Of a stretch of 40,053 bases of DNA, positions 16,871-40,053 are shown piece after piece. The stretch comes from Desulfuromonas sp. TF. Its GTDB lineage: Bacteria; Desulfobacterota; Desulfuromonadia; Desulfuromonadales; ATBO01. A program made the position numbers and the translations under genes. The stretch covers positions 1 through 40,053 of the forward strand of contig NZ_KI421428.1 of assembly GCF_000472285.1 (NCBI RefSeq), given 5' to 3'. The notes below the pieces were generated by a model that saw nothing but the letters and a program-made list of their open reading frames with translations, did not search any database and was not told the origin of the DNA. Within the stretch, counting starts at the first letter, position 1. Every line of letters starts with the position of its first letter.

Positions 16871-16874
16871 ATCC

Positions 16875-16889
16875 GGGACGAGGGACGCG
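16875..16889. repeat. Short repeat GGGACGAGGGACGCG in the cobC-cbiA spacer
   Basis: This 15-mer is identical to part of the linker that joins CbiH and CobQ at 38514-38528, where its 14-base core is duplicated. Here it is in a non-coding spacer, which shows that the sequence is a dispersed repeat rather than a protein motif. Confidence 0.75.
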
Positions 16890-16929
16890 TGACCAAAACA
16901 GCAATTTTGACATCTCTGAGAGATGATTC

Positions 16930-18306
16930 ATGACCTTTTCTCGTCCCGCGCCTTTAATCATCGCTGCTCCCGCCAGCGGCTGCGGCAAGACCACCGTCAC
17001 CCTGGGGCTGCTCGCGGCCCTGAGGCGCCGGGGCCTTTCCGTGGCCCCGTTCAAGGTCGGTCCGGATTTCATCGATCCCGGCCACCATGCCGCCGTGTGC
17101 GGGAGGCCGTCGCGCAATCTGGACGGATGGATGTGCGGCGAAGCTTTTGTCCGGGAGGCCTTTGACCGGGGCCGGGCCGAGGCCGATCTGGCAGTAATCG
17201 AAGGAGTGATGGGGCTCTTCGACGGCGCCGCCGGCGACTCCGACGAGGGGAGCACCGCCGAGATTGCCAGCTGCCTGGGGGGCAGGATCCTGCTGGTGGT
17301 CGACGCCCGTTCCCAGGCCCGCAGCGCCGCCGCCCTTCTGAAGGGGTTTTGCACCTTCAACCCGAAACTCGAATTTGCCGGGGCGCTCTTCAACCGGGTT
17401 GCCAGCGATCGGCACGAACAGCTCCTGCGCGAAGCCGTCGCCTCCGTCCCGGGCCTCCCTCCGGTTCTCGGCTGCCTGCGGCGGGAGGAGGAGCTGACCC
17501 TGCAGGAGCGCCACCTGGGACTGGTGACCGCGGGGGAGACGACTCTGGACGAATCCTTCATCGCACGTCTGGCCGATTGGATGGAGAGGCACGTCGATAT
17601 CGAGCGGCTTCTTGCCGGAAGAAGGGGTCAGGTCTTGACATTTGACAAAGAAGCTCTTGTCAAATGTCAAGACCTGACCCCCAGAGTCCGGATTGCCGTG
17701 GCGCGGGACGAGGCTTTCTGCTTCTGCTATCGGGAGAACCTGGAGCTGCTGGAAGCGGCGGGGGCCGAGATCGTTCCCTTTTCACCGCTGGCCGACGCGA
17801 CCCTGCCGGAGCGGATCGACGGCATCTATCTTCCCGGAGGCTATCCCGAACTGCATGCCGGAAGGCTGGCCAAAAACGGAACTCTGCTGCGCGATCTGCG
17901 CGAGGCGGCCGATGCCGGAGTTCCCATCTACGCCGAGTGCGGCGGGTTCATGCTTCTCGCCGGGGCCATCGATGACATGGCAATGGCCGGGATCTTCCCG
18001 GGGCATGCGCGGATGCTGAAGAAACGCAAGGCCCTGGGCTACAGGGAGGTGACCTTCACCGCCGATAATCCCTTGGGCCCACAGGGAACGACGGCCCGGG
18101 GGCACGAGTTCCACTACTCGGAAATGGATCTCCCCGGCACGGTGCAGACCTGCTACGGCCTGAGCCGGCGGGGCAGCGAGAAACTCGGTGTCGAAGGGTA
18201 CCGCACCGGCAACGTGCTGGGCTCCTACATCCACCTGCATTTCGGCAGCAACCCGCAGCTGGCGACGAATTTTGTGGCGTTCTGTCAGAAAAGGAGCCTC
18301 TTGTGA
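16930..18306 (+). CDS. cbiA: Cobyrinic acid a,c-diamide synthase with a palindrome-encoded insert
   Basis: The 458-residue glutamine amidotransferase begins with the ATP-binding fold (APASGCGKTTVT, then FKVGPDFIDPGHH and VIEGVMGLFDG). It ends with a type-1 amidotransferase domain whose nucleophile is C337 in YAECGGFML. It amidates the a and c side chains of cobyrinic acid. Residues 232-251, in the linker between the domains, are encoded by a perfect inverted repeat described separately. The frame is intact and both domains look complete, so the enzyme is probably functional. No strong ribosome site is seen before the ATG. Confidence 0.95.
   Translation: MTFSRPAPLIIAAPASGCGKTTVTLGLLAALRRRGLSVAPFKVGPDFIDPGHHAAVCGRPSRNLDGWMCGEAFVREAFDRGRAEADLAVIEGVMGLFDGAAGDSDEGSTAEIASCLGGRILLVVDARSQARSAAALLKGFCTFNPKLEFAGALFNRVASDRHEQLLREAVASVPGLPPVLGCLRREEELTLQERHLGLVTAGETTLDESFIARLADWMERHVDIERLLAGRRGQVLTFDKEALVKCQDLTPRVRIAVARDEAFCFCYRENLELLEAAGAEIVPFSPLADATLPERIDGIYLPGGYPELHAGRLAKNGTLLRDLREAADAGVPIYAECGGFMLLAGAIDDMAMAGIFPGHARMLKKRKALGYREVTFTADNPLGPQGTTARGHEFHYSEMDLPGTVQTCYGLSRRGSEKLGVEGYRTGNVLGSYIHLHFGSNPQLATNFVAFCQKRSLL
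17624..17681. repeat. Perfect 25-bp inverted repeat inside the cbiA reading frame
   Basis: Arms 17624-17648 and 17657-17681 are exact complements around an 8-base loop (AGAAGCTC). The arm begins GGGGTCAGGTCTTGACA, the type of sequence found as dispersed palindromes in related genomes. It is read in frame as RGQVLTFDKE-ALVKCQDLTP in the linker between the two CbiA domains. Confidence 0.93.
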
Positions 18307-19778: not shown

Positions 19779-19782
19779 AAGG

Positions 19783-19848
19783 CCGTGACGCGTAACGCGT
19801 GACGGGTTCAAGATTTTACCTGTCACGCGTCACCGCCACGCATCACGG
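19783..19848. repeat. Palindromic repeat after bzaF
   Basis: CCGTGACGCGTAACGCGTGAC and GTCACGCGTCACCGCCACGC, followed by ATCACGG, fold back on each other around a short AT-rich loop. No T run follows, so this is an extragenic repeat rather than a clear terminator. Confidence 0.55.
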
Positions 19849-26299: not shown

Positions 26300-26400
26300 C
26301 CAGGTATCAGGAATCAGGTCTCAGGAATTAGGAAACCTGAATCTGAAACCTGAACCTGAAACCTGAACCTGAAACCTGAACCTGAAACCTGAAACCTGAG
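26300..26400. repeat. Tandem CCTGAAACCTGAA repeat before cbiL
   Basis: About 100 bases consist of inverted pieces (CAGGTATCAGGAATCAGG) followed by five or six repeats of the unit CCTGAAACCTGAA or close variants. The right part is complementary to the left and can fold back. It reaches to within seven bases of the cbiL start, which lacks a ribosome site. Confidence 0.8.
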
Positions 26401-37785: not shown

Positions 37786-40053
37786 ATGGGAAAACTCTAC
37801 GTCGTCGGCATCGGGCCCGGCGGCGCCGAACATATGACCCCCGCCGCCTGCACCGCCATCGGAAAGGCGCAGACGGTGGTGGGCTACAAGACCTATCTCG
37901 ACCTTATCCCGGGGCTGCTGGACGGCAAGGAAGTCCGCTCCTCGGGGATGATGAAGGAAGTCGAGCGCTGCCGAGCGGCACTGGCCGAAGCCGCCGCCGG
38001 TAAGACGGTGGCCCTCGTCTCCTCGGGGGATGCCGGGATCTACGGCATGGCGGGGTTGGCTCTGGAATTGGGGGAGGAGTCCTGCGTCGACATCGAGATC
38101 GTCCCCGGGGTGTCGGCGGTGCAGGCGGCCGCCGCCCGCCTGGGGGCGCCCCTGATGCACGACTTCGCCGTCGTCTCTCTCTCAGACCTGCTGACCCCCT
38201 GGCCGTTGATCCGCCGTCGCCTCACCGCCGCCGCCTCCGCGGATTTCGTGGTCGCCCTCTACAACCCCAGAAGCAAGGGGCGCACGACGCAGATCGGCGA
38301 GGCTCGGGAGACCCTTTTGCGGCACCGCTCCCCGGCAACCCCGGTGGGCATAGTGCGCAACGCCTGCCGCGATGGGGAGGAGGTGACGGTGACGGACCTC
38401 GGCGCCCTGCTCGATCACTCCATCGACATGCTCAGCATCGTCATCGTCGGCAACTCGCAGTCGCGGCTCGACGCGGCGGGGCGGATCGTTACTCCGCGCG
38501 GATATGCGGTTCAGGGACGAGGGACGCGGGACGAGGGACGCGGAAATCAGGGCAAGGACGTTCTCGTTTCGCCTCCGGCGTCCCGCGTCCCGGACGCGGC
38601 GAGAGCCCTCTTCGTTGGCGGGACGGGGAGCGATGTCGGTAAAAGTGTCCTGGCGGCGGGACTGTGCCGCATTCTGAAACGCCGCGGCTTTTCCGTCGCC
38701 CCCTTCAAAGCCCAGAACATGGCCCTCAACTCCGCCGTAACGCCCGAAGGCGGGGAGATCGGCCGGGCCCAGGCCCTGCAGGCGGCGGCCTGCGGGCTGA
38801 CGCCCCACACCGACATGAATCCCGTACTGCTCAAGCCCAATTCCGACACCGGCAGCCAGGTGATCCTCCGGGGACGCCCGGTGGGTAACATGACCGTGTC
38901 CGAATACCATGCCTTCAAGCCCGAAGCGTTCCGCACGGTGGAGGAGTCCTTCCGCCGGCTCGCCGCCGCCTACGATGTCGTGGTCATGGAGGGAGCGGGA
39001 AGCATCGCCGAAATCAACCTCAAGGCCCACGACATCACCAACCTGCGGGCCGCCGCCCTGGCCGCCGCGCCGGTGCTGCTGGTGGCCGACATCGACCGCG
39101 GCGGAGTCTTCGCCGCCATCGTCGGCACCCTGGAGCTGCTCGAACCGGCCGAGCGGGAGCGGATCGCCGGGGTGGTGATCAACAAGTTCCGGGGGGATCC
39201 GGACCTGCTGCGCCCGGGGATCGAGGCGGTGGAGGCCCGCACCGGAGTGCCGGTGCTGGGGGTGGTCCCCTGGCTCGATCTGCGGCTCCCCGAAGAGGAC
39301 TCGGTGCCCCTCTCCCGCAAGGGGACCGGGTCACGGAAAAACGCCGTGCTCATCGGGGTGGTGCGCCTTCCCCGGATCTCCAACTACACCGATTTCGACC
39401 CCCTGGAGCAGGACCCGGGAGCGGAGCTGATCTATCTGGACGACCCCGGGCAGGTGGCCGGGTGCGATCTGCTGATCCTCCCCGGAACCAAGAGCACCCT
39501 CTCCGACATGGAGTTCCTGCGCGCCCGGGGGTTCTTCGCCGCCATCCGCGAACACCACGAGGCCGGGGGATGCGTCGTGGGGATCTGCGGCGGCTACCAG
39601 ATGCTCGGAGGACGGGTCGCCGACCCCCTGGGGGTGGAGTCTTCCCCCAGCGAAGCCGAGGGCCTGGGGCTGCTGGATATCGCCACGGTGATGACCCCGG
39701 ACAAGCAGACCCATCAGGCCGAAGGAATTCCCTTGCCGGCGGCCGGGGAGACCCCCCTGGGGGGGCTGGAGAAGGTGGCAGGCTACGAGATCCACATGGG
39801 GGAGACCGTTCTCGGCCCGGCGGCGCGGCCCCTGCTGCGCCTGACTATCCGCTCGGGAAACCGCGTCGATCTGGAGGATGGGGCGGTTTCCCCGGACGGC
39901 CGAATATGGGGCACCTATCTGCACGGGCTCTTCGACGATCCGTCCGTCCGCCGCGCGCTCGTGGACGATCTGCGCCGCCGGCGCGGACTGCCGCCGGCCC
40001 CGCCAGCCTCGGCCTCCACCCTGGAGGAAGAGTTGGATCGGCTGGCCGACCAT
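37786..40053 (+). CDS. cbiH-cobQ: CbiH-CobQ fusion: C17-methyltransferase joined to cobyric acid synthase (3' end outside window)
   Basis: The frame stays open from ATG 37786 to the window edge, 756 codons. Residues 1-242 are a complete CbiH/CobJ (VVGIGPGGAEHMTPAA, LVSSGDAGIYGMAGL, LYNPRSKGRTTQ, ending GRIVTPRGYAV). Residues from about 272 are CobQ/CbiP, beginning ALFVGGTGSDVGKSVLAAG, with a C-terminal amidotransferase domain (nucleophile C601 in GICGGYQML, and YEIHMGET). The two are joined by about 29 residues encoded by repeat DNA, with no stop and no start codon between them in this frame. The enzyme would contract the ring and methylate C-17, and also amidate four side chains of the corrin. 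Confidence 0.9.
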   Translation, partial: MGKLYVVGIGPGGAEHMTPAACTAIGKAQTVVGYKTYLDLIPGLLDGKEVRSSGMMKEVERCRAALAEAAAGKTVALVSSGDAGIYGMAGLALELGEESCVDIEIVPGVSAVQAAAARLGAPLMHDFAVVSLSDLLTPWPLIRRRLTAAASADFVVALYNPRSKGRTTQIGEARETLLRHRSPATPVGIVRNACRDGEEVTVTDLGALLDHSIDMLSIVIVGNSQSRLDAAGRIVTPRGYAVQGRGTRDEGRGNQGKDVLVSPPASRVPDAARALFVGGTGSDVGKSVLAAGLCRILKRRGFSVAPFKAQNMALNSAVTPEGGEIGRAQALQAAACGLTPHTDMNPVLLKPNSDTGSQVILRGRPVGNMTVSEYHAFKPEAFRTVEESFRRLAAAYDVVVMEGAGSIAEINLKAHDITNLRAAALAAAPVLLVADIDRGGVFAAIVGTLELLEPAERERIAGVVINKFRGDPDLLRPGIEAVEARTGVPVLGVVPWLDLRLPEEDSVPLSRKGTGSRKNAVLIGVVRLPRISNYTDFDPLEQDPGAELIYLDDPGQVAGCDLLILPGTKSTLSDMEFLRARGFFAAIREHHEAGGCVVGICGGYQMLGGRVADPLGVESSPSEAEGLGLLDIATVMTPDKQTHQAEGIPLPAAGETPLGGLEKVAGYEIHMGETVLGPAARPLLRLTIRSGNRVDLEDGAVSPDGRIWGTYLHGLFDDPSVRRALVDDLRRRRGLPPAPPASASTLEEELDRLADH
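38514..38593. repeat. Direct and inverted repeats encoding the CbiH-CobQ linker
   Basis: The 14-mer GGACGAGGGACGCG occurs twice in tandem (38515-38542). The inverted form GCGTCCCGCGTCCCGG follows at 38578-38593, so the stretch can fold back (CGCGGGAC 38525-38532 with GTCCCGCG 38580-38587). The same 15-mer GGGACGAGGGACGCG is present at 16875-16889 in a spacer. Confidence 0.85.

Follow-up and report, generated by a model that had tools for sequence, protein, structure and literature searches.

A palindrome resembling Y1 transposon ends in the interdomain linker of CbiA, and recurrent occupation of this linker among Desulfuromonadia

The cbiA gene of Desulfuromonas sp. TF raises the question of how a perfect palindrome came to be read in frame within a conserved protein. 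The window analyzed here (the whole stretch of 40,053 nucleotides from this strain) contains cbiA at positions 16930–18306; the gene and all of its parts described below lie on the forward strand. Its product is a 458-aa cobyrinic acid a,c-diamide synthase that scores 527 bits against NCBIfam NF002204, above the equivalog cut-off of 254, and the catalytic motifs (G19, K20, T21, C337, and H435) are all invariant, as in members of the CbiA/CobB a,c-diamide synthases. It is the only CbiA gene in the whole genome and is part of a cobalamin cluster (cobT, cobS, cobC, cbiA, a thiC-like gene, cbiM, cbiQ, cbiO, cbiD, and cbiL). Two further kinds of repeats occur in the window. Repeats of the GGGACGAGGGACGCG type are found at 16872–16893 (shortly 5' of cbiA), 19782–19803, and 38511–38546 (in tandem at 38514–38543), and 13-bp GAAACCTGAACCT units form a tandem array directly ahead of cbiL (26332–26399).

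The palindrome consists of a left arm GGGGTCAGGTCTTGACATTTGACAA (17624–17648) that resembles the terminal inverted repeats of Y1-transposase elements, an 8-nt loop AGAAGCTC (17649–17656), and a right arm (17657–17681) that is the reverse complement of the left one (25 of 25 nt, 100% complementary). As an earlier, sequence-only reading of this DNA had claimed, it lies in frame in cbiA and the reading frame stays open; it extends from part of codon 232 to codon 251. Among its three frames, on either strand, a single one is free of stop codons, and that frame is used. The predicted RNA fold of 17600–17705 has an energy of -64.3 kcal/mol (shuffle mean -31.2; z -9.4). In the window and 400 kb of the same genome (masked runs of N ignored), this palindrome is the top-scoring inverted repeat, and no other strong one lies clearly within a conserved protein.

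The palindrome separates the ATPase domain (PF01656; residues 9–195, 16954–17514) from the GATase_3 glutamine amidotransferase domain (PF07685; residues 254–441, 17689–18252), and makes up nearly all of the interdomain linker, which was delimited by the alignment and linker lengths (residues 229–252, 17614–17685). An AlphaFold2 model (alignment A1, 42 sequences) has a mean pLDDT of 90.2. The sequence-only reading had proposed a look at the predicted structure of the linker, and codons 234–247 (17629–17670) are the sole segment with pLDDT <50, such that this part is predicted to be disordered. In a sequence search of solved structures, PdxT-type glutaminases were the sole matches, and no crystal structure provided a view of the CbiA linker.

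Arm sequences in the host genome and at Y1 transposase genes elsewhere

Within its own genome (4,402,753 bases, about 4.40 Mb), the palindrome is a single copy. A search for GGGGTCAGGTCTTGACA with up to two mismatches found no site outside it. A looser arm search gave 17 matches compared with nine for a reversed control; apart from two GGGGTCAAGTCTTT sites and the palindrome, these are mostly chance matches. One of the two sites adjoins a Y1 transposase gene of the strain. The genome has two Y1_Tnp genes, neither with ends matching the cbiA arm: one has GGGGACAGTATA ends and the other has a single GGGGTCAAGTCTTT end. The missing matching transposase concerns present mobility, not origin. The 58-bp element had no match among plasmids, and an exact search of IMG/VR with the 24-nt arm likewise found none. 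Two other palindromes were observed in this genome. One (AAGGGGTCGCGTCTCCAAA...TTTGGAGACGCGACCCCTT; positions 17240–17291 of L241, G000:C17:240001-260000) is like an inverted-repeat family of the GGGGTC type found in the same genome, and the other (positions 1862–1957 of L249, G000:C10:600001-620000) is a type-C palindromic element that is apparently intergenic.

In other genomes of the phylum, the arm core is repeated. With up to one mismatch, 25 matches were found in G292, four in G293, and nine in G212, and the reversed control pattern had zero matches in the same search. Thus, the description of the sequence as a dispersed type holds for these genomes and fails for the host genome. The sequence-only reading had also named uniqueness in the genome as grounds for refutation; the palindrome is indeed unique there, and its mobile origin is still supported by the other genomes. 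The association of the arm with Y1-type transposases, made in that reading, was borne out, since the same core or its variants flank Y1 genes. In G444 (L219), two inverted arm copies about 1 kb apart surround a gene for a 327-aa Y1 transposase (MGRPLRIEYPGALYHITSRGN), and each end has a full core match (20/20 bases). Sister variants of the arm flank Y1 transposases in G031 (25/25), G057 (24/24), G015, G119, and G292, and a variant close in sequence to the cbiA arm of G045 flanks one in G574; the Y1 loci with sister variants include L271, L275, and L324. The exact 24-nt arm also occurs in short gene-free, non-autonomous pairs in G292 and G293.

Di Nocera et al. (2013; PMC3733652) describe as TIRYT the tyrosine transposases located between inverted repeats that share GGGGWSAS; dimers of some of these repeats are found as well. 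The cbiA palindrome has GGGG and CCCC at its outer ends, with GGGGTCAG at both, which fits this motif. The motif and the flanking transposases in other genomes support an assignment of the cbiA arm to TIRYT-type Y1/HUH elements. The sequence-only reading had called it REP-like, which is not accurate in the strict sense because the GTAG tag is absent and the GGGGWSAS motif is present instead. Different cbiA genes carry arms of different dispersed families. The arm of Desulfuromonas sp. TF belongs to the G292/G293 family, that of G119 is close to G068/G003, and that of G009 equals a dispersed arm in G026, of another family. An arm comparison for G009 gave 23 of 24.

For type-A arms (the type found here), 99 distinct sites were collected from the fetched loci, which are a non-random sample, and the interior of a recognizable protein was found only for cbiA. 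Among the other sites, no open frame across the arms resembled the interior of a real protein, as judged by eye; copies outside cbiA are intergenic and have varied flanks. In comparison, type B (an unrelated type, described below) enters other proteins now and then, with one clear case in 20 sampled stretches: an in-frame pair at positions 1454–1514 of L289 (G062:C15:8400-11400), within a 790-aa DNA methyltransferase-like frame (LDPCCGSGHFLVAAF).

Occupation of the linker across Desulfuromonadia

The linker was read in 91 cbiA genes from the named genomes and the order, and types B to F and decayed copies were assigned by eye from sequence. Type A was found in G000, G045, G119, G009, and G015, in decayed form in G019, G012, G008, and G120, and also in Geobacteraceae or unplaced relatives (L059, L061, L062, and L064). 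Its carriers belong to families f1, f5, f8, f10, and f16 as well as Geobacteraceae, with decayed copies in f20. Other linkers contain type B (CCCCCTTTGNNAAAGGGGG) or type C (CTCTCCC/GGGAGAGG), which are unrelated to type A, and type D was seen once (L081) and type F, made of short repeats, twice (L088 and L097). Type-B motifs are multicopy in the five carriers checked (G001, 7; G034, 17 to 19; G062, about 70; G002, 7 or 8; G022, 3 to 5). No recognized element is present in the linkers of the remaining 52 genes. This series of hits at the same site across the class had escaped the sequence-only reading.

Mapping of these labels on a quick tree of the CbiA core (linker left out; 27 of 88 inner branches weak) required at least 20 changes; type A alone required eight. 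The cleanest switch is within one genus with very similar cores, in which L171 and L172 have type B and L175 has type C. Furthermore, type A comes after a type-B remnant in the linker of L135, and type C comes after half of a type-A element in that of L089. These remnants of two elements indicate that occupation can be serial. Inverted repeats scoring at least 14 were found 14 times in the linkers of the 91 genes and zero times elsewhere in cbiA, although the linkers account for only 6% of the bases (7.7 of 127 kb). Insertion points within the linker differ by several codons between elements, and decayed copies are found in apparently intact cbiA genes. Neither an empty allele from the same species nor a target-site signature could be identified, the linker being rearranged. 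Y1 elements are not expected to produce target-site duplications.

A second loop, in the glutaminase domain, is also used. It corresponds to residues 345–351 approximately (17962–17982) and is empty in Desulfuromonas sp. TF, whereas relatives have palindromic elements there, among them type A (L062), type B (L174), and type D (L081). Insertions near these residues were observed in L062, L064, L066, L070, L174, L058, L068, L076, L081, L084, and L093, and several of these belong to palindromic types A to D or to a PPPIPLLNQEG type.

The sequence-only reading had further described the palindrome as 20 residues added to the protein and had suggested an alignment of CbiA homologs. The element is absent in many relatives, yet the linkers of these relatives are as long and have unrelated sequences. 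At query residues 229–252, the median linker length is 23 in the 52 element-free genes, 24 in nine with type A, and 28.5 in the others. These lengths indicate that the element replaced the linker rather than lengthened it. The length of 58 bp is not divisible by three, and the element fills nearly the whole linker; its insertion was therefore very probably accompanied by loss of the old linker.

Origin and persistence of the linker palindromes

We consider it likely that the CbiA linker is a permissive landing pad, in which mobile palindromes were captured one after another and then became the linker. The palindrome would be a minimal non-autonomous element, namely a pair of Y1/HUH (TIRYT-type) terminal inverted repeats with 8 nt between them. 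It may have been transposed in trans by a transposase that has since been lost, and may have entered the linker between the two domains, which is predicted to be disordered, in the correct frame. The protein would tolerate such a landing, given that the element can be read through in one frame and supplies roughly the length required, and the original linker could be lost because length and flexibility alone would matter. Surplus sequence would then be deleted, followed by slow decay, such that the element became the linker and its hairpin would have no function.

One old type-A insertion that predates the diversification of the class, with vertical descent, arms kept matched by template-switch correction, and decay in other lineages, may explain why type A occupies the same site in both Desulfuromonadales and Geobacteraceae. 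Moreover, the sister species G119 (L147) and G120 (L154) have the element at the identical nucleotide position (38 of 52 nt identical), with a high divergence of 0.447 at four-fold sites of the core, and recent shared descent does hold for this pair. However, separate cbiA copies match the separate dispersed families described above, and close relatives carry types B and C in the same place. Inheritance of a single insertion was therefore weighed and not preferred, and appears unlikely as a general account.

The same pair bears on possible selection for the hairpin itself, which could, for instance, slow ribosomes between the domains when folded in the mRNA or serve as a DNA/RNA binding site. 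The arms of G119 are intact (24/24), whereas those of G120 have nine broken pairs (15/24 paired). Equal neutral decay would leave broken pairs in G119 as well as in G120, and the chance that all 14 differences fall on one named lineage is 2^-14. In addition to this asymmetry, the high stability of the hairpin, its placement exactly at the domain boundary, and the perfect arms of three single-copy cases are consistent with selection. In contrast, more than half of the relatives (52/91) lack a recognized element, the palindromes differ in sequence and shape, and decayed copies occur in apparently intact genes. We thus regard selection of the hairpin as improbable.

Targeted insertion, in which transposases recognize a sequence or structure in this region of cbiA, would account for a paired-arm search of 136 genomes of the order, in which G000, G045, and G119 have one copy each, all in cbiA. 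Three such copies were seen, compared with about 0.005 expected if 22 copies were placed at random; this figure assumes a mean genome size of 3.15 Mb and is generous given selection against intragenic insertion. However, the linker is used by unrelated element types, insertion points vary by several codons, the second loop is used too, and type-A copies elsewhere are intergenic with varied flanks, which makes targeting quite improbable. Finally, a chance palindrome or assembly artefact, which would fit the single-copy status with nothing else found, is refuted by independent genomes, in which this arm type recurs both at the ends of transposons and in the cbiA genes of several other families, and has next to no probability.

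The neutral landing pad alone does not explain the perfect palindromes in single copies, nor why the sole genomic copies that the paired-arm search found in G000, G045, and G119 are in cbiA. Any one of three processes, namely correction between the arms, re-insertion, or selection, would produce the asymmetry between G119 and G120. Tentatively, single-copy cbiA palindromes may be kept perfect over species divergence, either because one arm serves to correct the other during replication or because a hairpin between the domains is selected. If so, a domesticated transposon end inside a protein would be maintained as a palindrome across species divergence.

Comparison with known systems

Among known elements, there is a close likeness to TIRYT/TIRtron elements. 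Their GGGGWSAS motif fits GGGGTCAG, and their repeats are found on both sides of Y1 tyrosine transposase genes and, as dimers, dispersed in genomes (PMC3733652). The cbiA palindrome differs in that it is single-copy, lies within a coding gene, and is found in a genome without a matching transposase. GTAG-type REPs have high copy numbers and are mostly intergenic, whereas the cbiA palindrome is one copy in a gene and lacks the GTAG tetranucleotide at its GGGG and CCCC ends. Bacterial MITEs are short, non-autonomous, and have inverted ends, and in-frame fusions are known (review, PMC10969869); the Chunjie MITE is longer (178–235 bp) and mostly intergenic (PMC10969869).

The parallel with Rickettsia palindromic elements (RPEs) drawn in the sequence-only reading is apt, in that a palindrome is read in frame within a conserved and intact-looking protein. 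However, the cbiA palindrome is unrelated in sequence and lacks the CGTC end reported for RPEs. Furthermore, RPEs are inserted into numerous unrelated genes within a genome, whereas here one copy is found in one gene, and several element families share one site at the CbiA linker. Intragenic REPs, some suggested to be in flexible linkers, are listed by Di Nocera et al. (2013; PMC3733652), including REPs that two Xanthomonas species have at approximately one position of recB. As far as the accessible text of that study goes, these are GTAG or CGTC elements, unlike the cbiA palindrome, and a single linker hit by unrelated types throughout a class is not reported there.

In-frame Rickettsia palindromes, intragenic REPs, the idea of linker tolerance, and the shared Xanthomonas recB site are therefore already published. 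In the searchable literature, which includes few subscription journals, we found no account of one linker colonized class-wide by unrelated families or of an element replacing a linker. Because occupied, decayed, and double-occupied states coexist, the steps from insertion to neutral linker are directly testable, as is whether hairpins of this kind are retained or simply tolerated, and the CbiA linker is a natural laboratory for mobile DNA turning into protein. It is also a caution for users of protein databases, in which what reads as a linker can be a transposon end. Palindromes read in frame within proteins are known mostly as scattered single events, whereas here the linker of one enzyme has been hit many times by unrelated families.
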